In this document: piece after piece, positions 1 to 61,644 of the stretch
How positions within the stretch are numbered: the stretch's first letter is position 1
How the letters are laid out: each line of letters starts with the position of its first letter
Origin: a virus
DNA length: 64,000 bases
Reading direction: 5' to 3' (one strand)
IMG/VR virus record: IMGVR_UViG_3300017917_002953
Coordinates: 1 to 64,000 of that record
Notes under the pieces: generated by a model
Seen by the model: only the letters and a program-made list of their open reading frames with translations
Told to the model about the DNA's origin: nothing
The model's database searches: none
Program-made: the position numbers and the translations under genes

Positions 1-3000
1 CTAGTGGTACAGATGGGACTTCAGGTACTTCAGGAATAGATGGTACTAGTGGTACGAGTGGTACAGACGGAACTTCAGGAACAAGTGGAACTGACGGAAC
101 TAGTGGTACGAGCGGTACTACAGGTACATCAGGTACATCAGGTACAAGCGGTACAGACGGAACTTCAGGAACTAGTGGTACGAGTGGAACTACAGGTACT
201 TCGGGAACATCAGGAACAAGTGGTGAAAGTGGTATTTCTGCAGGACAAACATATTATTTCAATGAAAGTCAAAATTCCGATGTTTCGGGATATAAAGTAT
301 TAGATTTATATCCGACAACGGCATCGACTCAAACAGTTACAACAAATTTAACGGGAAGTCAACAAAATGTGTTGGTTTCTGATTACATAACGCCAGAATT
401 AGGATTTTCAGTTATACCTGGTGGTGTACAAAGATTTCATTTAAATTACTTGAAACAAGCGAGTAATGATGATATTGATGCTTATGTTGAAATACAATTG
501 GCGAATTCTTCAGGAACCCCTATAGGACCGACAATAACATCAAGTGTTTCTTTAATTGGATGGGTAAGTGCTGTAATACCGGTTGAAGTAAATGTTGATA
601 TTGTGTTATCAACTACAACAATTGACCCAACAAATAGAATGATTGTTAGGTTATATCTTAACAATAATGATTCAACTGCTCATTCGGTTGTATATTATAC
701 TGAAGGTAATTCATACTACTCTTTTGTTGTGACATCTGTTGGTTCGGTGGCTGGAACTTCAGGTACAAGCGGGACATCAGGTACAAGTGGTACAACAGGT
801 ACTTCAGGTACTAGTGGTACTTCAGGAACAGATGGGACATCAGGTACTTCAGGAACTAGCGGTACAGATGGTACATCAGGTACTTCAGGAACTAGCGGTG
901 TTGATGGTACAAGTGGGACTTCAGGGACTAGTGGTACAGATGGGACATCAGGTACTAGCGGAACTGACGGTACAAGTGGAACTTCGGGAACTAGTGGTAT
1001 TGATGGTACGAGTGGGACTTCAGGGACTAGCGGTTCAAGTGGGACTACAGGTACTTCAGGTACGAGCGGTACAGATGGGACTTCAGGTACGAGTGGTACT
1101 TCAGGTACAAGCGGTACGAGTGGTACTAGTGGAACTACAGGTACCTCAGGAACAAGTGGGACTTCAGGAGTAAATGGTATTTCAAGTGGTTTGGTTTATT
1201 ATTTAGATGGACCTTCAGCAACACAAACTGTTCCAATTGCTTCACCAATTAATGATGATTTAATTTTAATACCAAATACTGGGTCTCAAACAACTATAAC
1301 AACTACTAATTTTGACCCTGCAGATGGTGATACAATGATTGTTCATTATGTTACTCCGGCAACGTCTCTAACATCAACAACAATAATACCTGGTGTTTGG
1401 GTGAGTAATTTATTTGCTCAAAGAACTGGAGGAACAGGTAATCTTGTTTATTGGATTGTTATTGATGAAATGCAATCTGATGGTACAACATTAATTGCTA
1501 ATATTGCAACCGGTTCTGCGGTTTCAGGTACTAACATTGGAAATACTCAAAATAATTACATATATTATCAATATGTACCACAATATGTTTTAGCGTCTCT
1601 TAACTCAAGAATTAGAGTAAGTATTTACGCTAGTACAACAGGTAATAATACATCTTTCAATATTGAGATGAGAGATTCTACTCTTTCTAATATTGTAACA
1701 ACATTAGCAGCAAACTTATCCGGTAGTAGCGGAACTTCAGGAACATCAGGTACTAGTGGTACTAGTGGTACTTCAGGAACAGATGGAACATCCGGTACAA
1801 GCGGGACATCAGGTACAAGTGGTACAACAGGTACTAGCGGAACTTCAGGTACTAGTGGTACTTCAGGTACGAGTGGAACTACAGGTACATCAGGTACATC
1901 AGGTACGAGTGGAACAACCGGTACTAGTGGAACTTCAGGAACGGATGGAACTTCAGGTACTAGTGGTACTACAGGTACATCAGGTACTTCAGGTATTGAT
2001 GGTACTTCAGGTACGAGTGGAACTACGGGTACATCGGGAACAAGTGGTACTACAGGTACTAGTGGAACTTCAGGAACGGATGGAACTTCAGGTACTAGTG
2101 GTACTACAGGTACATCAGGTACTTCAGGTACGAGTGGAACTACGGGTACATCGGGAACAAGTGGTACTACAGGTACTTCAGGAACTAGTGGAACAACCGG
2201 TACTAGTGGAACTTCAGGTACAAGTGGTACTTCAGGTACATCAGGTTCAAGTGGTATTTCTCCAACAGGGTTAGTTGCTTCAAATTATGTTGCTAAAGGT
2301 GTTAAAGGTGGTAGTTCACAAACTGTGACAAATGGTGCTGATGCTGTGGTGACATTTGTTGATGAATTTGACCCTCAAGGTTGGATTACATCTAATAAGT
2401 TTCAACCAACAATCGAAGGTTATTATAATATTCAAGTAGCTGTATGGTGGGATGCTGGTTCGGTAACTAATGAACAAAATAATATACAGGTTAGAAAAAA
2501 TGGTAGTATACAAGTAGCTATTCAACAAACTCAAATTGTAACAGGTGCTGGATATGGTCAAGAAATTGATATTATTGTATATTTTAACGGTACTACTGAT
2601 TACATTGAAGTTACTGCATATACAGGTAATCCAACATCTCAAAATATAAATGGTGCAAGTTCAGGTACTTGGATTACAGCATCTTTAATTGTAGGTGGTG
2701 GTTCGTCAGGTACAAGTGGTACAAGTGGTACTTCAGGAAGTACAGGTACTTCAGGAACAAGTGGTACTTCAGGTGTGAACGGAACTTCAGGTACAAGTGG
2801 TACTTCAGGTACAAGTGGTACTTCAGGAACGACTGGTACTTCAGGTACTAGTGGAACAACCGGTACTTCAGGAACAAGTGGAACAACCGGTACTTCAGGA
2901 ACTAGTGGAACAACGGGTACATCAGGTACTAGCGGCACAACAGGTACTTCAGGTACTAGCGGCACAACAGGTACTTCAGGAATTGATGGTACGTCAGGGA

Positions 3001-3878
3001 CTAGTGGTACAACAGGTACATCGGGAACGAGTGGTACTACAGGTACATCAGGAACAAGCGGTACGTCAGGAATCAATGGTACTTCAGGAACGACTGGTAC
3101 TTCAGGAACAAGTGGAACAACCGGTACTTCAGGAACTAGCGGTACGTCGGGAGTTAATGGTACTTCAGGAACTAGCGGTACGACAGGTACTTCAGGTACT
3201 ACAGGTACATCAGGAACTAGTGGTACAACAGGTACAAGCGGTACAACAGGTACAAGTGGTACATCAGGTACGTCGGGAACGAGTGGAACTTCAGGTGTTA
3301 ATGGAACATCAGGAACAACAGGTACATCAGGTACATCAGGTGTTAATGGTACTTCAGGAACATCAGGTACTTCGGGAACGAGTGGGACATCAGGAATTGC
3401 AAATATTTTAAATAATGCTAATAATAGAATAACAACAGCTACGGGTAATGCTGGTGAATTACAAGCGGAATCTAACGCAACTTTCGATGGTTCAACTTTA
3501 AGAATTACAGGTGATACTGTGATGACAGGGTCATTAACTGCGGCGTCTAAATCATTTGACATTCCTCACCCAACGAAAGATGGTTGGAGATTAAGATATG
3601 GTGTATTAGAGGGACCTGAACATGGTGTTTATTTCAGAGGTAAAACAACTGAAAAAGTTATTGAATTACCTGATTATTGGATTGGTTTAGTTCATGAAGA
3701 TAGTTTTACGGTGAATTTAACTTCAATTGGAAAACCTTGTGAAAACTATGTAGTAGAAATTAAAGATAATAAAGTGTATATTGATAGTGGTTGTGATGAT
3801 ATTCATGTGTTTTACTTAATCCAAGCGGAACGTAAAGACATTGAAAAAGTATTATTGGAATACAAACCATTAAAATAA
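1..3878 (+). CDS. Collagen-like Thr-rich tail fibre protein, 5' end outside the window
   Basis: Virion fibre/adhesin. The reading frame is open from base 3, so the GTG at 369 is not the real start and the gene begins before the window; at least 1,291 residues are seen. Blocks of Gly-X-Y triplets with X almost always Thr and Y Ser, Thr or Asp (GTS, GTT, GTD) alternate with globular modules: about 231-750 and 1,178-1,720 look like paralogous beta-rich domains, and 2,258-2,700 resembles a C1q/TNF-like jelly roll ('[11 protein letters not shown]'). The C-terminal about 100 residues carry the phage fibre signature '[17 protein letters not shown]' followed by '[11 protein letters not shown]', known from many phage fibre tips. 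Proline is almost absent from the collagen triplets. Ends at a bidirectional terminator and is convergent with the glycosyltransferase operon. Confidence 0.9.
3..3398 (+). repeat. Gly-Thr-Ser/Thr/Asp coding repeats (four blocks)
   Basis: Degenerate 9-bp-periodic coding repeats (ggt act agt, gga aca tca and variants) occupy about 3-230, 753-1,170, 1,721-2,257 and 2,701-3,398. Codons vary between copies, so the protein repeat is conserved while the DNA is diversified. This creates long open antisense frames that are shadows. Confidence 0.9.
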
Positions 3879-3880
3879 AA

Positions 3881-3905
3881 AAAAAGGGACATAAGTCCCT
3901 TTTTT
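3881..3905. terminator. Bidirectional intrinsic terminator
   Basis: Stem GGGAC (3886-3890) / GTCCC (3895-3899) with ATAA loop, extended by A/T pairs and flanked by A-tracts and T-tracts, so it works on both strands. It separates the convergent fibre gene and glycosyltransferase operon. Confidence 0.85.
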
Positions 3906-6900
3906 ATTTTAGTTTGATTAAATGTAGTATTTGTTGAATAACCATTTCAGGGGATATTGATTTGTGGCATTCAAATTGTCTTTCAGTTCCTTTATGGACG
4001 GGACACCAATCCCAATCTCCTTTATCAAAAGTAAATTCGGGTTTATTCCAACATCCATTACATACAGATTTATTTATAATTCTTGTGCAATTTGTTGTGA
4101 ATTCATGGTCAGATTCTGTGAAGTTACTAATCATTACAACATCTTTACCTAATCCCCAAGCCAACCAAGACAATCCACTTGATAAACCAATAAAGAATTC
4201 ACTATGTTTAATTACATTTATGGTGTGAGACATTGAAGTGTTTTTAATTTTGTTTGCGTTTTCAAACGGATTATCTTCTTTTGATACATTAATTACTTTA
4301 TATCCTAAACTATGAAGATAATTTATTAATACTTGCCAACCTTCTCTTGTCCAAAATTTACACCCTGCGGTTGAATTGGTTGCAATTGTTACATATTTCT
4401 TTTGGTAAGGTTTTGGATGACTTCCTGATGAGATTTTTGGAAGTATTTCCTCATAGTCTAATCCCAAAATATTTGTAATTGTTTTTTGTAATGGTATTGT
4501 GTTTGGTAAAGTAGGTTCTTTATCTTTATCGTAAAACCAACCTATAGAATACATTGCAATTAAATTGGGTACGGTGGTTCCAGGTGTTACAAATTCAATT
4601 TCAGGGTATTCATTTTCAAATAAATGGTTCCAAAAAGTCGATACAATTACTTTACAATCATGTTTCTTTTTAAACTCCATTACGTAAGGAATCCAAGCGA
4701 TACTATCACCTAATGATTTACTCTCAAATGAGATGTATACTCGTTGATTAGTTAAATCTAATGTCTTATCGTATATGGTTTCACCATCACGAGTTACAAT
4801 AGTTCTCCACTTGGTATAATAACTTCTATTTAATTTAACCCAATGATTTGGTTTTATTGTGTTTTCGTAATGACAAATTCCTTTTTCATCTAAAAATTTA
4901 ATGTTATAATTTTTATCACCACTTCCTTTGATTTCTAAAAAAGGTTGTTTAACAAAATGTTGAAATATTTGAACTTCATTATCTACCATTATTTGTTTTG
5001 TTATTGGTTTATTTGATATGTGTTGATATAGGTTATAATTTTTATCCGCGAATTCTTTTTCTCCGTAATTAGGTGATTGATAATTTTTTTCATCTTTAAT
5101 TAAATCTAAAAGTTGATTTTTCATATCAAAAATATCTCCGGAAAGTTGTTTAATATACGGGGTAAACATATCCATATATTGTGGAAGATTTCTTGATAAG
5201 ATTTTTAATCCATAAGAAATTCCTTCTCGTAATACAAGTGGGTTACATTCCCAAGTGGAATTAAACATTAATACATCGGCAGCCACCATAAAATCGGATA
5301 CGTCTGCTCTTTCTCCCCAAACTCTAACATTGGATGGTAAATCCTTCATAATTGGTTCCCAATAATCTCTAAAGTTTGGTGCTTGATTTCCAATAAAATG
5401 AAATTCTAATTCCGGATAAATACCCTCAACTAATTTGGCGATTTCAACACCTTCACCTTGGTTCTTTCCTGGAGTCCATAATCCAACATTGATAATATGA
5501 ATTTTATTTGGGTCTAACCCTAATTTTTCTTTAGTACTTTCTTTTGATAATACAATTGTTGGGGTGTATGGAAATTCAATAACTTCACCATAAGACGGCA
5601 TATCTCTAAAGGTTACTTCTTTATGAAATGGTGAACAAAATGCATATGCCTCAGGGTGAAATACTTTTTCAATATTTGGTTGAAATACCACATTATGACA
5701 TGTTTCAACAACTCTCCAAGTTCGGTCATTTTTATAAATAAAATTCATCAACTCATTTGATAATTTATTATATGAATCGAATGATTCAATCATCTCATCC
5801 AAATGAATTACATCAAAATAATTTTCTTCAATAATTTTCTTCAATTCATTTTTGTCTTCACCTAAGGTCCAAAAATGGGTTGGAGGTATTAACTCTTTAA
5901 TTCTATTTTTTTGAACAACATAATGGTCACTATGATTGGAATATTCCACCACAAACAACTCAACTTTATCATTGTAATATTTCAATAACGATTCAATTCG
6001 TTTTAATAAAAATGACGGCATACCACCGGTTGATAAATGTGGTGCTAAAAATAATACTCTCGTTTTAACATTAACATTGTCTATAATATCAAACATTTTA
6101 TCAATTTCGTTTTGTCTTTTTTCACCATGAAAAACTTTAATATAATTCTTATTCTCAGGTATTGTATAAAATTCTTTCACGACAGTATATTCACCACCTT
6201 CAAATTTAAAGAAATGGTTTAATGTTTTTGCACCGTCAACATTTATGTATGATAAAGGTAATCCTTCATGGTTAGGGTTAATTTTCCAAATTAAAACATT
6301 ATATATTGTTTCTTCGTGGAATGGGGTTATGGTGTTTAATGAAACTAATTTTGGTAAAATATTTTTTGTGTCTCTCCATGTTTTCAAAAATTCTTTGGTG
6401 TTGGAATTACCCACTAAAATATTTGTGGTTCGATAATGACTTCGTTGGTTTGGTTCTAATCCCATAAACTTCATTAACGGCCATTCTAATGTGTTTTCAT
6501 AATCAACAGTTCCATCATTCCTCCAAAAAGGGTTTCCGACCAATGAACCATCAGATTTTACCAATAAAACATATTCATGGGGGCCTAAAGTAGCTAAAGG
6601 GAATTCTGTGATTTTTGAACAATACATAAACAAATCATCAACATTTTTATTAACAATGCTGTCAGAATCGATATAAACCCATTCATTCAAATGTTGGGTT
6701 GCTTCCAACATCACATCTATTTTTGCACCTAAAGCGTAATAACTTCTAATGTGATTTCTATTTACGTATGAATTACCGTTTGCGTCTTCAATAAATCCCT
6801 CATCGTCTAATTTTGGTAAATTTAAATTAACCCTATAACATTTTGTTAGATTTTGTAATTCTTCAGACCCATTATAATCTACGGTGTATACGATAATATC

Positions 6901-6987
6901 GTATTTTGAGTATTTTTTTATACTTTTAACTAAATTTAAAGTTATATGTTCGTAGTTTTTAGTTGTGTGAGTAATAAATGCTCTCAT
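3904..6987 (-). CDS. Three-domain glycosyltransferase (GT-A + GT4 + BAHT/TibC-like heptosyltransferase)
   Basis: 1,027 residues, apparently three sugar-transferase modules. Residues 1-300 look like a GT-A (GT8-like) enzyme with metal-binding 'DSDS' near 107-110. About 310-650 is GT4-like GT-B: 'HLSTGGMPSF' near its start, 'NVGLWTPGKNQGEG', and an E-rich donor motif 'ECNPLVLREG'. About 730-1,027 resembles the bacterial autotransporter heptosyltransferase (BAHT) family: 'STAGCKFWTREGWQ', 'GLSSGLSWLAWGLGKDV', and a Cys finger C976-x2-C979-x15-C995-x11-C1007 within 'GDWDWCP' and 'RQFECHKSI', matching the iron-finger of TibC-type enzymes, which O-glycosylate Ser/Thr of repetitive surface proteins. 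Start ATG overlaps the stop of the upstream gene by 4 nt (translational coupling). Acceptors are inferred to be the neighbouring Thr-rich virion proteins. Domain families are recognised by motif only. Confidence 0.85.
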   Translation of the reverse strand: MRAFITHTTKNYEHITLNLVKSIKKYSKYDIIVYTVDYNGSEELQNLTKCYRVNLNLPKLDDEGFIEDANGNSYVNRNHIRSYYALGAKIDVMLEATQHLNEWVYIDSDSIVNKNVDDLFMYCSKITEFPLATLGPHEYVLLVKSDGSLVGNPFWRNDGTVDYENTLEWPLMKFMGLEPNQRSHYRTTNILVGNSNTKEFLKTWRDTKNILPKLVSLNTITPFHEETIYNVLIWKINPNHEGLPLSYINVDGAKTLNHFFKFEGGEYTVVKEFYTIPENKNYIKVFHGEKRQNEIDKMFDIIDNVNVKTRVLFLAPHLSTGGMPSFLLKRIESLLKYYNDKVELFVVEYSNHSDHYVVQKNRIKELIPPTHFWTLGEDKNELKKIIEENYFDVIHLDEMIESFDSYNKLSNELMNFIYKNDRTWRVVETCHNVVFQPNIEKVFHPEAYAFCSPFHKEVTFRDMPSYGEVIEFPYTPTIVLSKESTKEKLGLDPNKIHIINVGLWTPGKNQGEGVEIAKLVEGIYPELEFHFIGNQAPNFRDYWEPIMKDLPSNVRVWGERADVSDFMVAADVLMFNSTWECNPLVLREGISYGLKILSRNLPQYMDMFTPYIKQLSGDIFDMKNQLLDLIKDEKNYQSPNYGEKEFADKNYNLYQHISNKPITKQIMVDNEVQIFQHFVKQPFLEIKGSGDKNYNIKFLDEKGICHYENTIKPNHWVKLNRSYYTKWRTIVTRDGETIYDKTLDLTNQRVYISFESKSLGDSIAWIPYVMEFKKKHDCKVIVSTFWNHLFENEYPEIEFVTPGTTVPNLIAMYSIGWFYDKDKEPTLPNTIPLQKTITNILGLDYEEILPKISSGSHPKPYQKKYVTIATNSTAGCKFWTREGWQVLINYLHSLGYKVINVSKEDNPFENANKIKNTSMSHTINVIKHSEFFIGLSSGLSWLAWGLGKDVVMISNFTESDHEFTTNCTRIINKSVCNGCWNKPEFTFDKGDWDWCPVHKGTERQFECHKSISPEMVIQQILHLIKLK

Positions 6988-8636: not shown

Positions 8637-9104
8637 ATGATTTCAATAACTTTAACAGGAATAACTGGGACTGCACCATATGTAATATCGGTTTGTGATA
8701 TTACAAAAACTTATTGTTATAATGTTTATACCGGTACACCGACTTTACCTTTAACAGTCGAAGTGCCTTCACAACTATCCACCGCGAATCAAGTATTGTT
8801 GGATGTTGTGGATTCTCAAAATTGTGATTATTTTCAAATCATATCGTGTATACCATCTTCACCAACACCGACAACGACTACAACACCAACTCCCACACCA
8901 ACACCTAGTGGATGTGCTTGTTTAACTTTTGAGAATACGGGAGTAACAAATGCGAATATTACTTATACTCGATGTGATGGAGTTATAATTACTGAAACAC
9001 TTTATGTTGGAACCATATTATATTATTGTGGGGGTAATCCGACTTTTGATGGGGATGTGTCAGTAACAATTGGACCTGCTTGTGTTAATAATACCTGTAT
9101 TTAA
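8637..9104 (+). CDS. Small modular virion surface protein with Pro/Thr linker
   Basis: 155 residues. Residues 1-75 form a beta-rich module ('TGITGTAPYVISVCD', 'YCYNVY') that is paralogous to the 12,655 protein and to the N-terminus of the 12,870 protein. A Thr/Pro linker (about 76-92) leads to a second Cys-containing module. No enzyme motif. Located with the other PT-linker proteins and likely part of the same fibre or surface layer. Ends at a bidirectional terminator. Confidence 0.8.
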   Translation: MISITLTGITGTAPYVISVCDITKTYCYNVYTGTPTLPLTVEVPSQLSTANQVLLDVVDSQNCDYFQIISCIPSSPTPTTTTTPTPTPTPSGCACLTFENTGVTNANITYTRCDGVIITETLYVGTILYYCGGNPTFDGDVSVTIGPACVNNTCI

Positions 9105-9461: not shown

Positions 9462-12400
9462 ATGGCTTGTAAGTATTATAATGTAACGATAAGTGCACTT
9501 GATTTAGCGGACGCAACCGGAAACTCTAATCCATCATTAAATGGAGTTGTTTTTGTTAGTTATACCGATTGTTTTGGTTCGCCAATTGAGACAAGTTATG
9601 CGAGTGCGGGTACATATGTTGATGATATATGTGCAGATAATACTGATTTTGTTGGTGTTTTCTATTGGAAAGATAATAGTCAATTTCTATCAATTAATAG
9701 TAGTGCTACAGAGCAAGGTGATTGTTCGGTAGGGACACCAACGCCTACACCAACACCTACTACAACACCTGTTTATATCTGTGAATATTATGACACATAT
9801 GTGTATGAATCAGACTTATTATTAGCCACTGGTAATACTGACCCTTCATTAAATAATGTTGTAGTTTATCAATATGCGGGATGTGACGGAAATCCTGCGG
9901 TTTACAAACAGGGGGTGTCAGGAAATACTTCCAACGCTTTATGTGTTTCTAGTGAAGGTGGGGGATTTATTTTCATATGGGTTTATACCGATGATGTTCA
10001 AAATTTTGCAACTAGTTACGCGACTAATACTACAAATTTATGTTTTGTCCCAACACCAACGCCAACACCAACAAATACTCAAACACCAACAAATACTCAA
10101 ACACCAACAAATACTCAAACACCGACTAATACTCCAACACAAACTCCACCCGCATGTTATTATATTGGAAAGTTTTTATATAGTTCGGTTGATTGTAATG
10201 GTGCTTGTACAAGTATTGAACAAGTTGATTTATATTCAAATACTGAGCCGATAGTACCAGGGTCAATATTATATTCAGGGACTTGTGTGACCACTGTAAA
10301 CGATGGTTATTATTCGTTGGCGTCTACTGCAGGGCCAAGTAATTTAGGATGTTATACAGTTAATGGTGGTAGTGGTGTTATTAGTTCATATTCTATCTGT
10401 GTAACACCAACACCAACACCAACACCAACAACTACACCGACACCAACTAATACTCAAACACCTACTCAAACTGCAACTAAAACTCAAACACCTACTCAAA
10501 CACCTACACCAACAAACACTCCAACAGGAGGGTATATTGTTGAGTTTCAAAGTTGTGTGAATTCACTTAATAAATTTAGATTTATTGGATTACCATCGAC
10601 ATTTTCTATCGGTGAAACTTATTTAATTGATAATAGTAGTGAGTATGAAGGTTGCGCTACTGTTGTTACATATACAGGGTCAGGGCCAATTTATAATGGT
10701 TCGGGGGTAAGTTTTACACAAATGAGTTTTGGTTGTGGAGACCCAACATGTCCGACAACAAATAATATTCCGGCCGTACTTACAAAATGTTCTGACGGGA
10801 CAATATTATATGCCAATGTTGAAGAAGGAACTGCGTTTGTTGGGGCGGCTTATTTGTATAATGGTGAATGTTATGAGTTCATCGAATTCTCAGGACCGGG
10901 AGGACCTAATTTAGGGGAACCTGATTACAAAAGTTGTTTATATTGTATTCCAACTCAGACGCCAACACCAACACCTCAACCAACACCTACAATAACACCA
11001 ACACCATCAACAACACCGATTGCGTGTTCAAACAGTGTTTATTGTTTTAGAACTACATTATCATCTTTATCAGGTTATAGTGGAAATTATACATCTGCTG
11101 GTTCATATAATTCAAAACCTTATTATTCGGGAGATTCGGTGAGTACTTCCTTTATTTATTATACCGGAAATTATTGGTGTTTAAGTGGAAGTTTAGGTGG
11201 GTCTTGTTTATTACAGGGGGCAGAACCTTGTTATTCAAATTGTCCTGATATTTCTGCTAATGATTTTTCGGTTGGACCATGTCCTTCACCGACACCATTG
11301 CCAATTGATTGTTCGACTTTTGATTTTAGTGCTTATTTTGATTGTGATTTTGAGCCGACGCCAACTCCAATCCCGGTTATTGATTGTGATGATGTTGATT
11401 TTACTATTGATAGTATTGGTGTGACTCCAACACCTTCACCAACACCTACAAGTGCATGTAATTTAACTTCGGTTTCGTTTAGTTTAAGTTCGTATACGCC
11501 ATCAACACCAAGTGTTACGGTTACACCATCAGTTACTGTAAGTAATACAGTTCCTGCCGGTGGATTGGTTACATTCAATATGATGGAAGATACATTTAAG
11601 TGTGTGTTAGTAAAAGTATTGAAACTTTGTTCTGATGGTAGTGAAATATATGTGACAGATGGATTGGTGTATAATAATTTACCTTTAACGACCGGAACAA
11701 CATTCTTGGCTTTAATCAATAATGTTCAAACATGTGTAACTTATGATAGAGATGATTTCAATTTCTCATCTAATGTAAATGTTGATTCAATTATAAATGT
11801 ATACGGTAATTGTGGTGCTTGTAATGTATTACCTACACCAACTCAAACACCAACAACGACTCAAACTCCTACACCTACAAATACATCAACACCTACACAA
11901 ACATCAAGTCAAACACCTACTCAAACTATGACACCAACACCAACAAGAACCCCTAATGGAACTCCACCTGAGACTCCAACACCAACACCAACAAATACAC
12001 CAACAAATACAAATACGCCTACAAATACAAGAACTCAAACACCAACACCAACACCAACGTCAAAATATGTTTATGTTTATGAGAGTTGTTCACCTATTAA
12101 AGGTTCTTTGTTTGATTTTACATCACTTAAAACTCAAATTGGACAATCAGTACCACATCCAAATGTTAATATTGGAGAAATTTTCGCAGACCAAAATGGT
12201 GTTTGTTGGACTTTCTTAGGTCAGTTTGATGCTAATTATTCACCGACACCTCCAAATAGTGTGATTTACACAACATCGGATACGGATTATTTCACAATAC
12301 CGACATTAACGACCTTTATAACTTGTGAAAGATGTGAAAATATTGCGACAATATATAGTTTTGGGGGTTCAAAAGATGGATTTGTAAAACCGGATGCCGC

Positions 12401-12644
12401 TTGTGTTGATGTAAATTTAAATGGTTCAACGATTTCATATTATTCTTACACTCAAAGTTTAGAGGTGGGAAGTGTAATTTATGTAAATACAGGTGATTTT
12501 TTTAATCCGGTTTATGAACCTTTGGCTGGTGGTAATTTATATTATGCGATTGGGGATTCAATTCTTAATTTTTATTCTTCATATCAAATAAATAATTTAG
12601 GGGTAATAATTTCAATTGGAAATTTAAGTTGTATTTTAATTTAA
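9462..12644 (+). CDS. Large modular virion surface protein with mucin-like Pro/Thr linkers
   Basis: 1,060 residues. Alternates Cys-containing beta-rich modules of roughly 80-120 residues with linkers of the type 'TPTPTPTNTQTPT'. The first two modules (about 3-90 and 104-195) are clear duplicates sharing 'DL..ATGN.(N/D)PSLN.VV'. Further modules have paired Cys suggestive of disulfides, consistent with an extracellular virion role. The linkers are as Thr/Pro-rich as eukaryotic mucins and are candidate O-glycosylation regions. No catalytic motif seen. TATTTATA sits 16 nt upstream. Likely co-transcribed with the next genes (10-nt gap, then stop/start overlap). Exact structural position unknown. 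Confidence 0.85.
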   Translation: MACKYYNVTISALDLADATGNSNPSLNGVVFVSYTDCFGSPIETSYASAGTYVDDICADNTDFVGVFYWKDNSQFLSINSSATEQGDCSVGTPTPTPTPTTTPVYICEYYDTYVYESDLLLATGNTDPSLNNVVVYQYAGCDGNPAVYKQGVSGNTSNALCVSSEGGGFIFIWVYTDDVQNFATSYATNTTNLCFVPTPTPTPTNTQTPTNTQTPTNTQTPTNTPTQTPPACYYIGKFLYSSVDCNGACTSIEQVDLYSNTEPIVPGSILYSGTCVTTVNDGYYSLASTAGPSNLGCYTVNGGSGVISSYSICVTPTPTPTPTTTPTPTNTQTPTQTATKTQTPTQTPTPTNTPTGGYIVEFQSCVNSLNKFRFIGLPSTFSIGETYLIDNSSEYEGCATVVTYTGSGPIYNGSGVSFTQMSFGCGDPTCPTTNNIPAVLTKCSDGTILYANVEEGTAFVGAAYLYNGECYEFIEFSGPGGPNLGEPDYKSCLYCIPTQTPTPTPQPTPTITPTPSTTPIACSNSVYCFRTTLSSLSGYSGNYTSAGSYNSKPYYSGDSVSTSFIYYTGNYWCLSGSLGGSCLLQGAEPCYSNCPDISANDFSVGPCPSPTPLPIDCSTFDFSAYFDCDFEPTPTPIPVIDCDDVDFTIDSIGVTPTPSPTPTSACNLTSVSFSLSSYTPSTPSVTVTPSVTVSNTVPAGGLVTFNMMEDTFKCVLVKVLKLCSDGSEIYVTDGLVYNNLPLTTGTTFLALINNVQTCVTYDRDDFNFSSNVNVDSIINVYGNCGACNVLPTPTQTPTTTQTPTPTNTSTPTQTSSQTPTQTMTPTPTRTPNGTPPETPTPTPTNTPTNTNTPTNTRTQTPTPTPTSKYVYVYESCSPIKGSLFDFTSLKTQIGQSVPHPNVNIGEIFADQNGVCWTFLGQFDANYSPTPPNSVIYTTSDTDYFTIPTLTTFITCERCENIATIYSFGGSKDGFVKPDAACVDVNLNGSTISYYSYTQSLEVGSVIYVNTGDFFNPVYEPLAGGNLYYAIGDSILNFYSSYQINNLGVIISIGNLSCILI
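10065..10136 (+). repeat. 18-bp tandem repeat in Pro/Thr linker
   Basis: Three perfect copies (10065-10082, 10083-10100, 10101-10118) and one degenerate copy encode TPTNTQ. Perfect copies suggest recent slippage and linker-length variation. Confidence 0.85.
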
Positions 12645-12654
12645 AGAAAAAGAA

Positions 12655-12870
12655 ATGGCAATACAAGTAACAATAGATACAATCGCAGGACTACCACCAT
12701 TCGACATTTATATATGTCAATCAAATGGTACGGGTTGTTTTTATATCTCAACTATAGAATCAACACCATATGTGTTTGATATACCCGAACCATATGATAA
12801 TGCAACAACTTATCAATTAAAAGTAATTGATGGAAATAACTGTACAATAACCGGAATAGAAAGTATATAA
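12655..12870 (+). CDS. Small single-module surface protein
   Basis: 71 residues consisting of one copy of the small beta module: 'AGLPPFDIYIC', Cys, 'YVFDIPEPYD', 'LKVIDGNNC'. It aligns with the first 70 residues of the next protein and with the start of the 8,637 protein. Its TAA overlaps the next ATG (TAATG), so the two are translationally coupled. Presumably a minor virion component or an oligomerisation partner of the larger paralogue. Confidence 0.75.
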   Translation: MAIQVTIDTIAGLPPFDIYICQSNGTGCFYISTIESTPYVFDIPEPYDNATTYQLKVIDGNNCTITGIESI

Positions 12871-14426
12871 TGAGTCAAGAAGTAACAATATTATCAGTAA
12901 CTGCAAACACACCTGTGGATGTGTATTATTGTGATTCGTTTAGTGCGAATTGTGTTTTTGTGGATTCAGTAACCGTGTTTCCTTTTACTTTTGACGTTCC
13001 ACCTCCATATGACCAAACAAATATTGTAATTAAAATAATCGATAATGAAGATTGTGTTGATGGTGAAGTAATTCCAATCAGTCCAACACCGACAAGTAGT
13101 GTTACACCGACTATGACGCCAACATCAACTCAAACGCCAACTAATACTCAAACACCAACACAAACCCAAACTCAAACTTCGACACAGACGGGTACGCCAA
13201 CTCAAACACCAACAAATACTGTAACTCCAAGTCAAACACCGGTTGCGGCAATTCATTATGTTGGGCAAAATCCTTTTACAACTTCAGGTGAAGTCTGTAA
13301 TGATATTGTTACAATTTTACCATATTATACTTATTTAAGTGAATCAAACAATGTTCCAGTAATTGGTGTTACGGTTTATCAAACAATTCTTAATGGGGTT
13401 CTTTATAACCCATTCAGCGGAGGTGAAAAATATTATAAAATGACATTTGGTGAATATTATTATGCGGTACAAATTAACGATGATGGTGAGATAATGTCTT
13501 TTAATATCTGTTCGCAGTTAATTACACCAACACCAACGCCAACTATGACATCTACTCAAACTCCTACTAATACATCAACAAATACTAATACACCAACAAA
13601 TACACCAACAAATACCTCAACACCTACCAATACTCCAACAAATACTTCAACACCTACCAATACTCCAACAAACACGACAACTCCAACACAAACAAAAACA
13701 CCGGGATTTACACCAACTAATACTCCAACAAATACCTCAACACCTACTCCAACACCAACTAGTTTACCTTTGGCAATATCTCAATATGGTTATCTTTATA
13801 ATGAAAATTTTGCTCATGTAAGTAATTTTGCACCAACAGGGTGGAGAATACCCGAATACCACAGTAGTGCCGGAACACTTAGTGATTTGTTTATATTGAT
13901 AAATTATATTAGCTCTAATGGAGGAAAATTAAAAAGTATGAGAACCGCTCCTATGGCTCAACCGAGGTGGGAAGTTCCTAATACTGGTGCGGTTGACATT
14001 TATGGATTTTCGGCTTTAGGTGCGGGATTTAGACAACAAAATGGTAATTTTTGGCCTCTTGGGTACGAATTTAGATTATTAGGTGGTGGATATGATTATA
14101 CTGGATTAATCCCTGTTTTTAGTACTCTTCGATTGAGTACTAATAGTTCGAGTGCAACAATTGCAGCAGGTACTAGTATGCAGAATTATGGTCAATCCGT
14201 TCGATTTATTAAAGAAGACCCAAACGATTGGTCTCCGGGTGATACTGTAACGGATTACGAAGGTAATGTTTATAATACTGTCCAAGTTGGGACTCAAGTT
14301 TGGACAGTTGAAAATTGGAGGTCTCTTAAATATTTTGATGGGTCAGATATACCATTAGTTCAAGATAGTTCGGCATGGATTGCATTAACAATACCGGCAG
14401 CTTGTTATAATACGCTGAATTATTAA
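12870..14426 (+). CDS. Modular virion protein with Pro/Thr linkers and C-terminal FISUMP-like domain
   Basis: 518 residues. 1-70: small beta module paralogous to the preceding protein. Then a PT linker, a second module (about 125-215), a long 'TPTNTPTNTS' linker, and from about 308 to the end a domain resembling Fib_succ_major/FISUMP of Bacteroidetes surface proteins: 'YGYLYNENF', 'GWRIPEY', 'GFSALGAGFR', then 'GNVYNTVQVGTQVW'. In the usual FISUMP the 'GNVYKTVKIGTQ' segment comes first; here it is last. Binding or adhesin role inferred from that family. Confidence 0.8.
   Translation: MSQEVTILSVTANTPVDVYYCDSFSANCVFVDSVTVFPFTFDVPPPYDQTNIVIKIIDNEDCVDGEVIPISPTPTSSVTPTMTPTSTQTPTNTQTPTQTQTQTSTQTGTPTQTPTNTVTPSQTPVAAIHYVGQNPFTTSGEVCNDIVTILPYYTYLSESNNVPVIGVTVYQTILNGVLYNPFSGGEKYYKMTFGEYYYAVQINDDGEIMSFNICSQLITPTPTPTMTSTQTPTNTSTNTNTPTNTPTNTSTPTNTPTNTSTPTNTPTNTTTPTQTKTPGFTPTNTPTNTSTPTPTPTSLPLAISQYGYLYNENFAHVSNFAPTGWRIPEYHSSAGTLSDLFILINYISSNGGKLKSMRTAPMAQPRWEVPNTGAVDIYGFSALGAGFRQQNGNFWPLGYEFRLLGGGYDYTGLIPVFSTLRLSTNSSSATIAAGTSMQNYGQSVRFIKEDPNDWSPGDTVTDYEGNVYNTVQVGTQVWTVENWRSLKYFDGSDIPLVQDSSAWIALTIPAACYNTLNY
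13591..13740 (+). repeat. 30-bp repeats in Pro/Thr linker
   Basis: Near-identical 30-bp units encoding TPTNTPTNTS-type decapeptides at 13591-13620, 13621-13650, 13651-13680 and 13711-13740. Confidence 0.8.
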
Positions 14427-14464
14427 ATAAAATAAATAAAAATATAATTATAGAATAAAGAAGA

Positions 14465-16909
14465 ATGCAAGGTATAATTTGTGGTTTAGGTTTAATTAAA
14501 CAAAATAGTGAATATAATTACACGGATTGTTGTGGTAATTTCATATCAGGTTTAAATAATACCGGTGGTGATTTGGAGGTAAATTTTAATTATACTTTAC
14601 CAAGAGGTGGTGTGGGTAAATTAAATGTACCTGTTAGTGTAACATGTGCTTCACCAACCCCAACCCCAACACAAACAGTTACACCAACAAACACTGTTAC
14701 ACCTTCTGTAACTCCAACAAGTACTCAAACTCCTACACCAAGTATTACACCATCAATTACTCCATCAAATAGTCCGGTTACAAGGTTAAAGAATAGTTGT
14801 GATGTTGTGACTTTATTTAATATGGGTATTTCGTGCAATGTTATTCAAAACCCGTCAAGTCCAACTTCATTGGATGGTATAATATCAGTTAATGTTACAG
14901 GTGGTACTGCACCATATTCATATTTTTGGGCCGGAGGGCAAAGAACTCAAACATTATTTGGAGTACCACAAGGAACTTATGAAGTAGTGGTGACAGACTA
15001 TTCATGGCCTGATGGAGGTCCTGACTTTACAGCCTCAACGATATGTTCGTTAGTTGGACCAACTCCAACAACAACACCAACAATGACACCAACACCAAGT
15101 AATACACCACCAATACAATGTGTTGATTTGTGTGTTACTATGACAAGTGAAAGAGGTGTAATTCAATTTGGACCTGCACAATTTGTATGTAATGGTTTAT
15201 TTAACGGTCAATTTAGTTGGTTTGCAGAATCTAACGGAAAACCTTTTTATATTCTATACAATTTGGATAGATATCAAATCTATAACGATAGTGAGGGTAA
15301 TGTTCCATATTTCTTTGAAAATAGTGTTGTTGCAACAGATGTATACGCGGCAATACCATTAACAGGTTGGCAATACTATGGAGGTTTTGCTTCAGGTAAT
15401 ATAACAGTATCTACAGAACCTTGTCCGGAATACCCTCCATTATCACTAAATCTATTCTCAAATAACAATAGTTGTCGAGGAATGGTTAATTGTGATGGCT
15501 CAATTACAGCAAATGTACAGGGTGGTGTTGCGCCTTACTATTATTCAATTAATGATGGTGTGACAACACAAACAAGTCCAACATTTAATAATTTATGTCC
15601 TGCTAATTATATTGTAACTGTTTATGATTCGGTAGGTAATGTACAATCAAGTAGTGTTGAAATTAGTTTTGAATCTAATCCAGTGACATATCAATTATCT
15701 GTTGTTGATTATGGAACTCCGGTGGTTGGAGGAATACCAAATGTTTCGAATAATTTAACTAAAAACTATAAAATTCAATCTAACCCACTAATACCTGTTG
15801 GTACTAGTGTGACTTTTAATTTAACATTCTCGAATACTAAGACATATGATGGACCTGGTAATGGTACAATAAACAATACCTTTATTGTATACAAAAATAA
15901 TGTACAACAAACTGTTAACTTAGTTTCTAATACACCTGTGGTAATAAACAGACCAAATTGTTCACCAAGTCAACAAACAGGAGTAACCCAAACTAATACA
16001 ATAACATTAACAATGAGTTCGGGTGATGATATTTTATTGATTGATGCATCTGATTTAACCTTAACAAACCCTCAAGGAAGTGCTCAAACAAATTGTACTA
16101 CAAAACTTACTCAATCAGTGACTTCAAATATTACACAAGTTTCAGTTTCGGGTAATGAATGTTCAACTGCTGTTGGAGGTTCAAGAACTGTTTTAGAAAA
16201 TTCAATTACTTATGTTCCAACAGTAACACCACCTGATTTACCTTGTTTTGGTTATTTATATAATTTTTATGCAATTACAGGTTCAACTACACAATCATTA
16301 ACAAGTAGTGATAGTTGGTCTGTACCAACTCAAACTGATTTCCAAACTTTAATTAATTCAGTTTCTAACAATTCAAGTGCGTTAAGATTAGTTAATACAA
16401 CTACTTATTGGAGGGCGAATAATACAAATGCGACAAATACATCGGGATTCAGTGCTAAAGGAAGTGGGTTTAGAGATACTTTGACCAACGTAGGGTTTAC
16501 TAATTTAAGAGATGATGTGAATTATCATTCTAAAACACCTTGGAGTGGTGGTCAAAATCTAAGTGTATCGTTATTTCTTTCTAGTGGTCAAATAACACCT
16601 CTTCTTAGTACGTTAAGTGCGAATATTAGAACTGCTGGTAATTCGGTAAGATTGGTTAAAAATACAACACAATTATTACCGGGTCAAACAGGTACATACG
16701 TTGGTAATGACGGAAAAACATATAATACAATATGTATAGGTACTCAAGAATGGATGTCAGAAGATTTACGAGAAACTCAATATAGAAATTCAACGGCAAT
16801 ACCGAATGTAACCTCTCAATCAACTTGGTCAGGGTTAACCACAGGAGCTTATTGTATTTACAATAATGACCCAACTAATGTTGGAGGATGTACTGAAAAT
16901 TTACCATAA
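14465..16909 (+). CDS. Modular adhesin-like virion protein: SprB-like repeats and C-terminal FISUMP-like domain
   Basis: 814 residues. A short N-terminal module and PT linker are followed by a SprB-type repeat ('GTAPYSYFWAGG', 'GTYEVVVTD'; about 125-185), another linker and module, a second SprB-like repeat ('GGVAPYYYSINDG', 'NYIVTVYDS'; about 350-400), a beta-rich region, and from about 595 a FISUMP-like domain ('GYLYNFYAI', 'GFSAKGSGFR', 'NSVRLVK', then 'GKTYNTICIGTQEWMSEDL' and 'LTTGAYCIYNND'). SprB repeats are known from Flavobacterium gliding adhesins, a strong host-group marker. As in the previous protein, the 'IGTQEWM' segment lies after the rest of the domain. Likely a receptor-binding or surface-attachment component. 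Confidence 0.82.
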   Translation: MQGIICGLGLIKQNSEYNYTDCCGNFISGLNNTGGDLEVNFNYTLPRGGVGKLNVPVSVTCASPTPTPTQTVTPTNTVTPSVTPTSTQTPTPSITPSITPSNSPVTRLKNSCDVVTLFNMGISCNVIQNPSSPTSLDGIISVNVTGGTAPYSYFWAGGQRTQTLFGVPQGTYEVVVTDYSWPDGGPDFTASTICSLVGPTPTTTPTMTPTPSNTPPIQCVDLCVTMTSERGVIQFGPAQFVCNGLFNGQFSWFAESNGKPFYILYNLDRYQIYNDSEGNVPYFFENSVVATDVYAAIPLTGWQYYGGFASGNITVSTEPCPEYPPLSLNLFSNNNSCRGMVNCDGSITANVQGGVAPYYYSINDGVTTQTSPTFNNLCPANYIVTVYDSVGNVQSSSVEISFESNPVTYQLSVVDYGTPVVGGIPNVSNNLTKNYKIQSNPLIPVGTSVTFNLTFSNTKTYDGPGNGTINNTFIVYKNNVQQTVNLVSNTPVVINRPNCSPSQQTGVTQTNTITLTMSSGDDILLIDASDLTLTNPQGSAQTNCTTKLTQSVTSNITQVSVSGNECSTAVGGSRTVLENSITYVPTVTPPDLPCFGYLYNFYAITGSTTQSLTSSDSWSVPTQTDFQTLINSVSNNSSALRLVNTTTYWRANNTNATNTSGFSAKGSGFRDTLTNVGFTNLRDDVNYHSKTPWSGGQNLSVSLFLSSGQITPLLSTLSANIRTAGNSVRLVKNTTQLLPGQTGTYVGNDGKTYNTICIGTQEWMSEDLRETQYRNSTAIPNVTSQSTWSGLTTGAYCIYNNDPTNVGGCTENLP

Positions 16910-48638: not shown

Positions 48639-50909
48639 ATGGCTAAAAACATATTAATAGTACCAAGTAATTCAATTGCTCCGCAACCGGACAATGTACC
48701 TTTTTTTGATTTCGAGAACACTGGCTTAATTAAATTAAAAGTTATTGCCAATGGAACTTTAGTGTTTAGTAGTGCCACCGAAGATGAAGTACTTTATATT
48801 AATGATAAAGAAGTTAGAGTAGGAAATAATTTAGATGTTATAGATTATTTCGAAGTAAATGGTACTCAAGTTATTAATGGTACGGGTGATTGGATAGGTC
48901 CTACAACAAATATTGAAGGTGCTCAAGGTGCAACGGGAGCTAAAGGTGATACGGGAGATACAGGAGATACGGGTAATACCGGTGCTCAAGGTGCTGCTAG
49001 TGTGGTTTCAGGTGCTCCCGGACCAACAGGTCCAACCGGTGCACAAGGACCTCAAGGTAATAATGGTATTTCGGGGTCTACGGGTCATATAGGAGTTACT
49101 GGTGCCACAGGTCCTAAGGGAGTTGCCGGTGCTACGGGTCCTCAAGGTCCTCAAGGTTTACAAGGCCCCCAAGGTTCACAAGGTACGGTAGGTCCTCAAG
49201 GTTCTACAGGACCAACAGGACCGACAGGAGCGATTGGTCCAAATGGACCTTCAGGTGATATTGGTGAGGACGGAGACACGGGAGGAAATGGACTAACAGG
49301 ATTTGCCGGGCCACAAGGTGTACAAGGTTCACAAGGGGGGCAAGGTTCTCAAGGTGCGACCGGTAATACAGGGGCTCAAGGACCGCAAGGACCTCAAGGT
49401 TCTCAAGGTAATTCCGGAGCACAAGGGGTTATAGGTCCCCAAGGTGCTCAAGGAAATACAGGTGCCCAAGGTTTTACTGGACCACAAGGTGCCCCGGGTG
49501 TCCAAGGATTGACGGGACCACAAGGAGCTGCGGGATTTACAGGACCGACAGGTGCTCAAGGACCAACAGGTGCCACGGGTCCTACGGGACCAACAGGGCC
49601 TACGGGACCAACAGGTGCTGTGGGACCAACAGGGTCTCCCGGAGCAACCGGTCAACCCGGACCTGCTGGTGCGACAGGGCATTCAGGTGCTCAAGGACCT
49701 CAAGGACCTCAAGGATTTCAAGGTCCGACAGGGTTCGTAGGAGGGCAAGGAACTAGAGGACCTCAAGGCTCTCAAGGTCCCCAAGGATTCCAAGGGGCTA
49801 CCGGATTTGCTGGTCCTATTGGAGCTCAGGGTTCACAGGGGTTACAAGGGTCTCAAGGTGCAACGGGTAATCGAGGACCACAAGGGTCTCAAGGACCAAC
49901 AGGAGCTACAGGTCCTACGGGACCTACCGGTAATACAGGTTCTCAAGGACCACAAGGGTCTCAAGGTGCCACAGGTGGGACAGGTTTTCCGGGACCTAAT
50001 GGTCCACAAGGTGCTCAAGGTGCTCCCGGTAATACAGGTGCAACCGGACCTCAAGGTGCTCAAGGACCTCAGGGTGCTCAAGGGTCCGCAGGGCCTCAAG
50101 GTGCTCAAGGGGGTCAAGGGTTTCAAGGTACTCAAGGAGGTCAAGGATTTCAAGGTGAGTTTAGAACAGGTCCTCAAGGTAATCAAGGTGCTCCCGGTCC
50201 AACAGGTGCTCAAGGTGTTCTTGGACCAACAGGTGCTCAAGGAGCCTCAGGCTCATCACCTACAGGTGCTCAAGGTGCTCAAGGGTCTCAAGGAGCGTCA
50301 GGTCCTGCTCTTGCGACATGTACATCCTCAAGTTTAACTTATTGGAATGATTGTAGTGAACCTTGTGCTGGATTCAAAGGTAATACAATAACTATTTGGA
50401 TGCAAAGTTCAGGTGACCCTTATCCCACATATAGATTTAGGACACAGAGTAATTGTCAAAATAGTATTTGTGATTGGAATACATACATACCTGTAGGTGG
50501 AGCAAGAAACTTTTTTTGTATAACTTATGACCCAGATTGTGGATTTATTGTAGACCAGTTTGATTGTTTTCAATATTCTGATGTTAGATTAAAAGATGGT
50601 ATTGAAACTTTAGAAAATTCATTAGAGAATATAATGAAGATTGATGCCGTTGAATATGATTGGAATAAAAATTTAAATCCTAATATGTATGAATTTTTCT
50701 TAAAACAAGATAAACTACATACCATAGGTTTAATTGCTCAAAATGTTAGATTATATTATCCTGAAGTTGTGAATATGAATGATGAAGGGTATTACTATAT
50801 TGACTATCAAAAACTAAATTCAGTTTTAGTTGAAGGTATTAAAGATTTACAGTATGAGATTCAAGAAATTGATAAAGAATTAGATGAAATTGAATTAAAA
50901 CTTAGTTAA
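48639..50909 (+). CDS. Collagen-like tail fibre with C-terminal S74 chaperone (copy 1)
   Basis: 756 residues. 1-90: beta-rich head with '[12 protein letters not shown]', shared with the next two fibres. About 92-560: uninterrupted Gly-X-Y repeat rich in GAQ, GPQ, GPT. About 562-645: Cys-rich tip domain ('[10 protein letters not shown]', 'CQNSICDW'), unique to this copy. From about 647: peptidase S74 intramolecular chaperone ('[12 protein letters not shown]', '[10 protein letters not shown]', 'PEVVNM'), which trimerises the fibre and cleaves itself off, ending in a coiled coil. TAATG overlap with copy 2. Probable receptor-binding fibre. Confidence 0.92.
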
Positions 50910-60096: not shown

Positions 60097-60499
60097 TTGG
60101 GAAAGAAAGACACATGTTCAAGCAGCATTTGCATCATCCTCTTCAAGTAAAAAATATTCTATGTTTGTGGGAAGGTGGCAACCATGGCACCATGGGCATA
60201 GAGCTCTAATTGACCAACAACTTAATAGAGGTAAGAATGTTTTACTTTGTGTTAGAGATGTTGAGATTGATGAGAAGAATCCATTTTCAACGGAATGGGT
60301 TGTTGAGAATTTGAATAACGAATTGAAAGATTTGATTGATGAAGGTCGACTAGTGATTCAAGTTATTCCGGATATTGAAAGTATCAATATTGGTAGAGGA
60401 GTTGGGTATGATGTTATTGAACATTTACCTCCTGATGAAATTAAAAACATATCTGCGACCAAAATTAGGGAACAGATGAAACAAGAAGGTAAGTTATGA
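60089..60499 (+). CDS. Cytidylyltransferase-like nucleotidyltransferase (HxGH)
   Basis: 136 residues. 'MFVGRWQPWHHGHRALI' contains the H-x-G-H signature of the nucleotidylyl transferase superfamily, and 'NISATKIREQ' is the ISxTxxR-like C-terminal motif. Shape is that of NadM/CoaD/ATP-sulfurylase-type adenylyltransferases. Substrate cannot be fixed; NMN, sulfate or phospho-sugar activation are possible. 8-nt overlap upstream and 4-nt overlap downstream. Confidence 0.78.
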   Translation: MNNWERKTHVQAAFASSSSSKKYSMFVGRWQPWHHGHRALIDQQLNRGKNVLLCVRDVEIDEKNPFSTEWVVENLNNELKDLIDEGRLVIQVIPDIESINIGRGVGYDVIEHLPPDEIKNISATKIREQMKQEGKL

Positions 60500-60795
60500 A
60501 ATTTAAAGTAGATATTGACCAATACGCGGAAGGTGCCGTTCTATTGGACGGATTAGAAAGTGCAATCGTTGGGATTGTGGAGGAGTTTGGAAACGGAAAT
60601 CGAATTTTATATTCCAAACAAAAGATACTCAACATTCTCCAAGAAAGAGATTTGATGACACAGGGTGAAGCCGAAGAGTTTTATGATTATAATATACTTG
60701 GATTACATGGTGGTGAACAAAATGCGGTGTTCCTTGATTTGGAAATTACACCAATAAAAAAAGAAGATGGTTGGGAATACCAATTAAAAGATTAA
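60496..60795 (+). CDS. Hypothetical conserved-type phage protein
   Basis: 99 residues. 'SAIVGIVEEFGNGNRILYSK', 'ILNILQERDLMTQGEAEEFY' and 'NILGLHGGEQNAVFLD' look like a small conserved alpha/beta domain met in many phages; no function known to me. ATGA coupling with the nucleotidyltransferase. Confidence 0.65.
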   Translation: MKFKVDIDQYAEGAVLLDGLESAIVGIVEEFGNGNRILYSKQKILNILQERDLMTQGEAEEFYDYNILGLHGGEQNAVFLDLEITPIKKEDGWEYQLKD

Positions 60796-60846
60796 AAAAA
60801 ATAATAATTTATTATGACTTCTCCTAACTATTAGATATTTATTAGT

Positions 60847-61644
60847 ATGGAGAAGTTATTATTAAATGAAACTGATGTTGTGAATCAGTATAATAGATTA
60901 AAAAACATACATAAAGTTGCGAAATATTTTAATGTATCAATATCACCAATTACTAGAATTCTAAAATCAAATGGTTTTGATTTAACCAATCGAAGATACG
61001 ATGTTAATCATAATTATTTTGATGTGATAGATACTGAAGAGAAGGCGTATTGGTTAGGTTTTTTATTTGCTGATGGTTATATTAGAGAAAGAAAATCGGG
61101 TAATTCTCTTGAAATTAAATTATCTATTAAAGATAGACATCATTTAGAAAAGTTCCGTAATTCAATAGGGTCAAATCATAATATAGTTGATGGTTTTAAT
61201 AGGGTGAAATACAAGGATGGTGTATCAAGTTCACATATGTCGACTTTGGCGATTTATTCCAAACAATTAGTTGAGTCAATTAAAAATCAAGGAATTCATT
61301 CAAGAAAAACATTTACAATTGAAAAACCTAATATTGGTAATGATTTAATTCATCATTTTATTCGAGGATATTTTGATGGTGATGGTACTGTTAGGTTTGT
61401 TGAAAAAAAATTAAATGGGACGGGTATTGCTTGTGCTTCTGAAAAGTTTAGAGAATTTATAATCAATGAATTATTTGATAATGGTATTACTATTAAACAT
61501 TATGGGGATATTCATTTACATATTCAAAATAAAGTAGAAAATAATAAATTTTATAATTACATTTACAACAACGCAACGATTTATTTAGAAAGAAAAAAAG
61601 AAATATATGAAAGATTTAGAGAATATTATAAATACAATAATTAA
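60847..61644 (+). CDS. LAGLIDADG-type homing endonuclease (free-standing)
   Basis: 265 residues. N-terminal helix-turn-helix-like segment ('NIHKVAKYFNVSISPITRIL') for DNA contact, then two LAGLIDADG motifs: 'AYWLGFLFADGYIRER' and 'HFIRGYFDGDGTVRF', with catalytic acidic residues. Predicted to cut a specific allele and copy itself. Its last 38 nt overlap the start of the DNA methyltransferase. A TATTTATT sequence is just upstream (60836-60843). Confidence 0.88.
   Translation: MEKLLLNETDVVNQYNRLKNIHKVAKYFNVSISPITRILKSNGFDLTNRRYDVNHNYFDVIDTEEKAYWLGFLFADGYIRERKSGNSLEIKLSIKDRHHLEKFRNSIGSNHNIVDGFNRVKYKDGVSSSHMSTLAIYSKQLVESIKNQGIHSRKTFTIEKPNIGNDLIHHFIRGYFDGDGTVRFVEKKLNGTGIACASEKFREFIINELFDNGITIKHYGDIHLHIQNKVENNKFYNYIYNNATIYLERKKEIYERFREYYKYNN

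Follow-up and report, generated by a model that had tools for sequence, protein, structure and literature searches.

Virus record IMGVR_UViG_3300017917_002953 is 69,480 bases long, and its first 64,000 bases are the window analyzed here. The window encodes a 1027-residue polypeptide with three glycosyltransferase modules, and the neighboring gene encodes a tail fiber built of collagen-like (Gly-Thr-Ser)n repeats (Table 1). We consider it probable that the multi-module enzyme O-glycosylates threonine and serine residues of the phage's own proline-free fiber. This reading builds on the observed identities of the modules, their fold and catalytic residues, the loss of two features of the related enzyme TibC (its thumb and Arg286), and the genomic pairing of enzyme and repeat. 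Many phages and some bacteria encode an enzyme of the same type next to a protein with Gly-Thr-Ser repeats, a recurrence that suggests a system of protein glycosylation not yet described. The presence of three glycosyltransferase modules on one phage polypeptide had been proposed in an initial annotation of the sequence, and it is borne out by matches to TIGR04414, PF00534, and the glycogenin fold.

Table 1. Coordinates in the window of the enzyme, its modules, and adjacent features.
Feature	Position	Strand	Basis and remarks
Three-module glycosyltransferase, 1027 aa	3904..6987	-	ATG start; GT4 and TIGR04414 matches; full length kept in many phage contigs
Module 1, residues 1-305, GT-A of glycogenin/GT8 type (fold only)	6073..6987	-	Foldseek and AlphaFold; D107, D109, and H287-G-E-K invariant
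Module 2, residues ~306-655, GT4 retaining glycosyltransferase	5023..6072	-	PF00534; E580-x7-E588; fold matches PimB' and BshA
BAHT N-terminal beta-barrel, residues ~656-748	4744..5022	-	Model strands ~672-733; TibC alignment
BAHT/TibC-like catalytic domain, residues ~749-1027	3907..4743	-	TibC sequence and fold match
Four-cysteine putative iron-finger segment (C976, C979, C995, C1007)	3967..4062	-	Alignment with TibC Cys339/342/358/370
Probable acceptor, (Gly-Thr-Ser)n collagen-like tail fiber	3..3878	+	Pfam Collagen, PHROG tail fiber; 5' end cut by record end
Bidirectional terminator-like hairpin	3880..3905	both	Between fiber and enzyme genes; 11-bp stem, T tails; fold -18.5 kcal/mol
Upstream gene, same operon, 528 aa	6984..8570	-	Methyltransferase (PF13578) and GT34-like glycosyltransferase (PF05637)

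A TibC-like domain without thumb or Arg286

The C-terminal domain is a BAHT homologue. Profile TIGR04414 (hepto_Aah_TibC), which has a curated cut-off of 200 bits, matches residues 693-1021 (E 1.1e-85, 287.9 bits), and a sequence comparison with TibC structures gives E 5e-52, each of the four finger cysteines having its counterpart in the alignment. An AlphaFold model of residues 306-1027 (predicted local distance difference test, pLDDT, 89.9) contains both the beta-barrel and the GT-B fold; Foldseek aligned it with TibC 4rap_A at E 4.8e-33, TMt 0.84, and a root-mean-square deviation of 2.5 A over 372 columns. The profile search and the comparison with TibC, which the initial annotation had suggested for its BAHT-type Cys finger, both came out in favor of that assignment. 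D761, T873, K877, and W941 correspond to TibC Asp110 (the catalytic Asp), Thr226 and Lys230 (which bind the beta-phosphate), and Trp305. Conservation was counted in 113 non-identical phage domains and 95 bacterial domains. The Asp, Thr, Lys, and first three cysteines are present in 113 of the 113 phage domains, and the Trp and the fourth cysteine in 112 each; the family scores and this conservation rule out chance as the source of the finger cysteines.

In TibC, the adenine-contacting Arg286 is required, and the thumb is needed for formation of the dodecamer (PMC4358343). These two defining features of the TibC mechanism are absent from the phage protein, where T922 replaces R286, S936 replaces P300, and the thumb is deleted. 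Arginine occupies the Arg286 position in 84/95 bacterial domains and in 1/113 phage domains, 105 of which have Thr. The tip of the beta-hairpin thumb (TibC F265 and V266) is a gap in every one of the 113 phage domains, and the thumb segment has 24 residues in 105 of them compared with 34 in TibC; the full 34-residue segment is found in 78/95 bacterial domains. Thumbless and phage members that were scanned score 245-320 bits against TIGR04414, compared with 663 bits for a classic member.

Because the thumb is lost and Arg286 is nearly always lost, the family match does not in itself imply heptose, ADP, or an autotransporter acceptor. No autotransporter was recognized among the window proteins scanned, and the gene neighbors are the collagen-like fiber and a methyltransferase/GT34 gene. 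As to ADP-heptose supply, rfaE was found over the cut-off in 1/46 phage records, and a GmhA-like gene in 1/46. Since both are almost absent from these phages, heptose is left without support, and a donor is probably supplied by the host. The initial annotation had called the domain a heptosyltransferase, a specificity that these losses no longer allow to be read from the family. It is therefore highly improbable that the enzyme simply transfers heptose from ADP-heptose, as TibC does, to an autotransporter or other beta-helical surface protein of the host, even though the family match exceeds the equivalog cut-off and the finger and most donor-binding residues are kept.

A phylogenetic tree built without the thumb columns places the thumbed enzymes around TibC in one clade (Shimodaira-Hasegawa approximate likelihood ratio test, SH-aLRT, 100). 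Another clade (SH-aLRT 99) holds 46/51 phage domains together with one metagenome-bin contig, possibly phage, and the few remaining phage domains are placed in other parts of the tree, in some cases with bacterial domains that lack the thumb. The phage enzymes are mostly a separate thumbless TibC-like branch. The BAHT domain of L098, assigned to MAG bacterium Cli_8, falls inside the phage clade, and its locus has a Gly-x-y open reading frame (ORF) of 154 triplets; this may be a misbinned phage contig or a prophage.

Phage and bacterial pairings of the enzyme with Gly-Thr-Ser repeats

The fiber beside the enzyme matches Pfam Collagen (PF01391, E 5.4e-74) and a PHROG tail fiber family (E 3.3e-68). 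It has 186 Gly-x-y triplets, in which x is Thr in 168, y is Ser in 138 and Thr in 29, and Pro is absent. The (Gly-Thr-Ser)6 pattern has 73 matches in the record, all on the strand of the fiber gene, and the matches listed lie at 96-3295. This fiber is the likely substrate, and the initial annotation had overlooked it.

A converse test was done with phage records picked only for (Gly-Thr-Ser)6 or for a control pattern, (Gly-Pro-x)6, using the 50 longest of each. The BAHT domain occurs in 25/50 Gly-Thr-Ser records and in 1/50 Gly-Pro-x records (Fisher p 1.8e-8). Generic GT4 enzymes show no enrichment (4/25 enzyme-negative Gly-Thr-Ser records vs. 7/49 Gly-Pro-x records), and a general richness of Gly-Thr-Ser phages in glycosyltransferases was rejected on these counts. 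In 14/25 records no more than 12 kb separates the enzyme from the repeats, where 6.8 such records would be expected (P 0.0015; several array positions are approximate). Ser/Thr-rich Gly-x-y ORFs are also found near the domain in other lineages, namely L054, L082 (a Microcystis phage), and L083 (a 735-kb phage).

In bacteria, a Gly-[STA]-[STAND] repeat ORF lies within 3 kb of 13/15 thumbless loci (thumb shortened or missing) and of 0/67 full-thumb loci (p 2e-13). The partner proteins look like lipoproteins or secreted proteins, are short, and differ from the phage fibers outside the repeat; their hosts include Gammaproteobacteria, Methylobacter, Methylomicrobium, Polaromonas, and an Oxalobacteraceae bin. 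Thumbless TibC-like genes stand beside Gly-Thr-Ser, Gly-Ser-Ser, or Gly-Thr-Ala repeat proteins at L088-L096, L091, L093, L099, L101, L102, and L116. The enzyme thus recurs next to proteins that are unrelated apart from the repeat, and substrate choice is the one explanation that readily accounts for this. The bacterial thumbless gene and its repeat protein apparently form an undescribed two-gene glycoprotein system, and such a pair offers a small system for direct study of substrate choice. The finger had been described as diagnostic of work on autotransporters, but thumbless members keep the four cysteines and most of the bacterial ones pair with repeat proteins, so it does not have this diagnostic value. 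The equivalog name of TIGR04414, "autotransporter O-heptosyltransferase," also covers thumbless members with no recognized autotransporter partner; the profile gives one name to both branches, which is corrected by separating thumbed enzymes, paired with autotransporters, from thumbless enzymes, paired with Gly-Thr-Ser repeats.

Glycosyltransferases encoded close to phage tail fibers are by default read, in published work, as modifying the host surface, and the enzyme could modify an O-chain, capsule, or S-layer, thereby altering phage receptors and blocking superinfection. Pelagimyophages carry GT8-type and other glycosyltransferases near their tail fibers, in a host-recognition cluster, as well as collagen-repeat structural proteins; in the accessible text of that study the enzymes are read as modifying the host O-chain, and glycosylation of the fibers is not considered (PMC7029224). 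Enzymes of lipopolysaccharide (LPS) synthesis often have GT8, GT4, or GT9 folds, and methyl- and pyruvyl-transferase modules are found in surface glycans. We nevertheless regard a host-surface role as unlikely. Hydropathy indicated no transmembrane stretch in the 1027-residue protein, and its anchor domain is of a protein-glycosylating family and not WaaC-type, since TIGR02193, the profile of WaaC-type LPS enzymes, reaches only E 3.9e-5 on the same protein. A host-surface target also leaves unexplained the link to Gly-Thr-Ser and not Gly-Pro-x fibers, and thumbless enzymes that stand alone in bacteria have repeat proteins as partners.

Another virion protein could be the acceptor. The opposite flank of the operon encodes Thr/Pro-rich repeat proteins (8637-9104 and 9462-12644); they occur in close relatives too, with similar neighbors in L003, L005-L008, and L010, and they are possible further glycan carriers. 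A Thr/Pro-rich protein is absent beside the enzyme in most relatives and in the bacterial members, where the recurring partner is Gly-Thr-Ser, so that we hold an acceptor of this kind to be quite unlikely.

Glycosylation of the Gly-Thr-Ser fiber remains the best explanation, and several points weigh against it. The link between enzyme and repeat is strong but not obligatory, because half of the Gly-Thr-Ser records have no BAHT domain, although these records may be fragments. Carriers do not have significantly more repeats than non-carriers (medians 10 and 6, p 0.24), and a dose effect was rejected. A repeat ORF lies within 3 kb in just 53/113 phage loci, many contigs of which end early, and the loci of the split-gene phages L070, L071, and L073 show none of these repeats. 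In bacteria, both the loss of the thumb and the pairing track the phylogeny, so the p-value there overstates the number of independent events, ancestry being partly shared. The support as a whole comes from genomic comparisons and predicted structures.

Proposed glycosylation of the fiber and comparison with known systems

From these data we infer the acceptor, the order of the steps, the sugars, the chemistry, the function, and the benefit to the fiber as follows. The TibC-like domain would recognize the repeat and place the first sugar on a Thr or Ser hydroxyl, a step modeled on TibC acting on Ser of TibA. The GT4 and GT-A modules would then extend the glycan, and the operon partner (methyltransferase and GT34) may cap or extend it, with methyltransferases modifying the sugars. 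The fusion of GT4 and BAHT in some phages and their overlapping split genes in others point to one pathway. Across the family, the thumbless branch would act on Gly-Thr-Ser or Gly-Ser-Ser repeats and the thumbed branch on autotransporter beta-helices. An oligosaccharide built on Ser/Thr by a processive assembly line had been suggested initially: protein Ser/Thr is still the most likely class of acceptor, and a chain of enzymes is plausible, though processive action would be a further supposition. Other phages add methyltransferase and pyruvyltransferase modules to the chain, or split it into overlapping genes.

The glycan probably stiffens or shields the long proline-free fiber. In bacterial collagen-like proteins the x position is often proline, and the triple helix of BclA is believed to benefit from glycosylation (PMC8968730); where proline is missing from the repeat, stiffness could depend on glycans. 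More generally, thumbless TibC-like enzymes might constitute a phage and bacterial system for proline-free Gly-Thr-Ser/Gly-Ser-Ser repeats. The glycan would take the stabilizing role of proline/hydroxyproline, and repeat and enzyme together would make a new type of glyco-collagen or glyco-rod; a sugar donor other than ADP-heptose would be used, and the autotransporter enzymes would be derived, having gained the thumb. This broader proposal is tentative, and we think it possible but doubtful. If fiber glycosylation is true, tail fibers are armored with elaborate, probably methylated, phage-made glycans, which would bear on host range and on fiber stability without proline. It would also bear on the annotation of phage glycosyltransferases, for which host LPS is the default target.

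The phage enzyme resembles TibC and AAH in its GT-B fold with a beta-barrel, catalytic Asp, Thr/Lys pair, Trp305, and four-cysteine finger, and it resembles AAH in having Ser at the P300 position. It differs from both in the missing thumb, in Thr for Arg286, in its fusion to GT4 and GT-A modules, in its score (288 vs. 663 bits), and in its partner, which is a Gly-Thr-Ser collagen-like fiber and not an autotransporter. BclA of Bacillus spores and mimivirus collagen also have Gly-x-y repeats that are rich in hydroxyl residues and presumed to carry glycans. Collagen-like proteins usually contain much proline, whereas here proline takes 0.3-0.6% of the x and y positions and the candidate enzyme is TibC-type. 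For mycobacteriophage Maravista (cluster F1), it has been proposed that glycosyltransferases encoded by the phage act on its structural proteins, with the capsid as the suggested target (PMC11256854); the present case differs from that account in having a multi-module BAHT polypeptide beside a collagen-like fiber. A literature search, with most subscription journals outside its reach, found no glycosyltransferase for Gly-Thr-Ser phage fibers, no BAHT enzyme in phages, and no glycosylated collagen-like phage fiber. Nor did that search give an earlier description of a BAHT branch that lacks the thumb, is associated with repeats, and forms part of multi-enzyme polypeptides in phages.

Other modules, relatives, and neighboring genes

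Module 1 has no significant sequence match in Pfam, NCBIfam, PHROGs, or PDB, even with a 54-sequence profile, and its GT-A assignment comes from fold comparison. Its model (pLDDT 89.1, pTM 0.90) has glycogenin as the best Foldseek match (E 2.6e-8, probability 1.0, TM ~0.5), and GT6 enzymes are matched too. The GT-A fold is accompanied by a DxD motif (DSDS, residues 107-110) and a C-terminal His, H287, which may be the metal-binding His; D107, D109, and H287-G-E-K are invariant in 54 sequences. The GT8 profile PF01501 does not match the 1027-residue protein and matches 2/54 relatives (best E 0.01), so the module is called GT8-like in fold and is not filed as GT8. In module 2, PF00534 matches residues 482-638 (E 1.4e-8, 34.9 bits, cut-off 26.4). 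The E-x7-E pair E580/E588 is intact within ECNPLVLREG (residues 580-589), and family members keep these glutamates without exception or nearly so. Both motifs and the four cysteines lie where the initial annotation had placed them.

Related proteins (~45-82% identity) are encoded at 80 or more IMG/VR loci, most of them with the full three-module protein, and a search with the BAHT domain gave at least 582 confirmed relatives. Among deposited phage records, 4/50,697 have a match; Microcystis phage Mel-JY01 is one of them, and genomes of huge phages (636 and 735 kb) are also represented. Some phages encode GT4 and BAHT in two genes that overlap. In others the polypeptide is enlarged, to as many as 1914 residues, by FkbM methyltransferase, GT32, GT25, or pyruvyltransferase modules. 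The polypeptide of that length (L229:5387-11125) contains an FkbM methyltransferase, GT32, a second methyltransferase, a pyruvyltransferase, GT4, and BAHT. Relative to L028 and L069, the enzyme gene at L078:9989-12952 is broken in two (ORFs of 703 and 255 aa), by decay, sequencing error, or phase variation. BAHT domains with in-frame stops occur in the phage records G004 (65706-66896, one TGA) and G011 (60464-61588, two TAA).

The enzyme gene overlaps the 528-aa gene by 4 bases and is convergent with the fiber gene, the two stop codons being 25 bases apart. The 528-aa gene starts at TTG, six codons before an ATG, and ~90 C-terminal residues of its product are of no recognized kind. A second fiber is encoded at 48639-50909, with Gly-Pro-Gln/Gly-Pro-Thr collagen repeats and a C-terminal endosialidase-chaperone domain. 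Proteins with Fib_succ_major domains and SprB repeats are encoded at 12870-16909 and hint at a Bacteroidota host.

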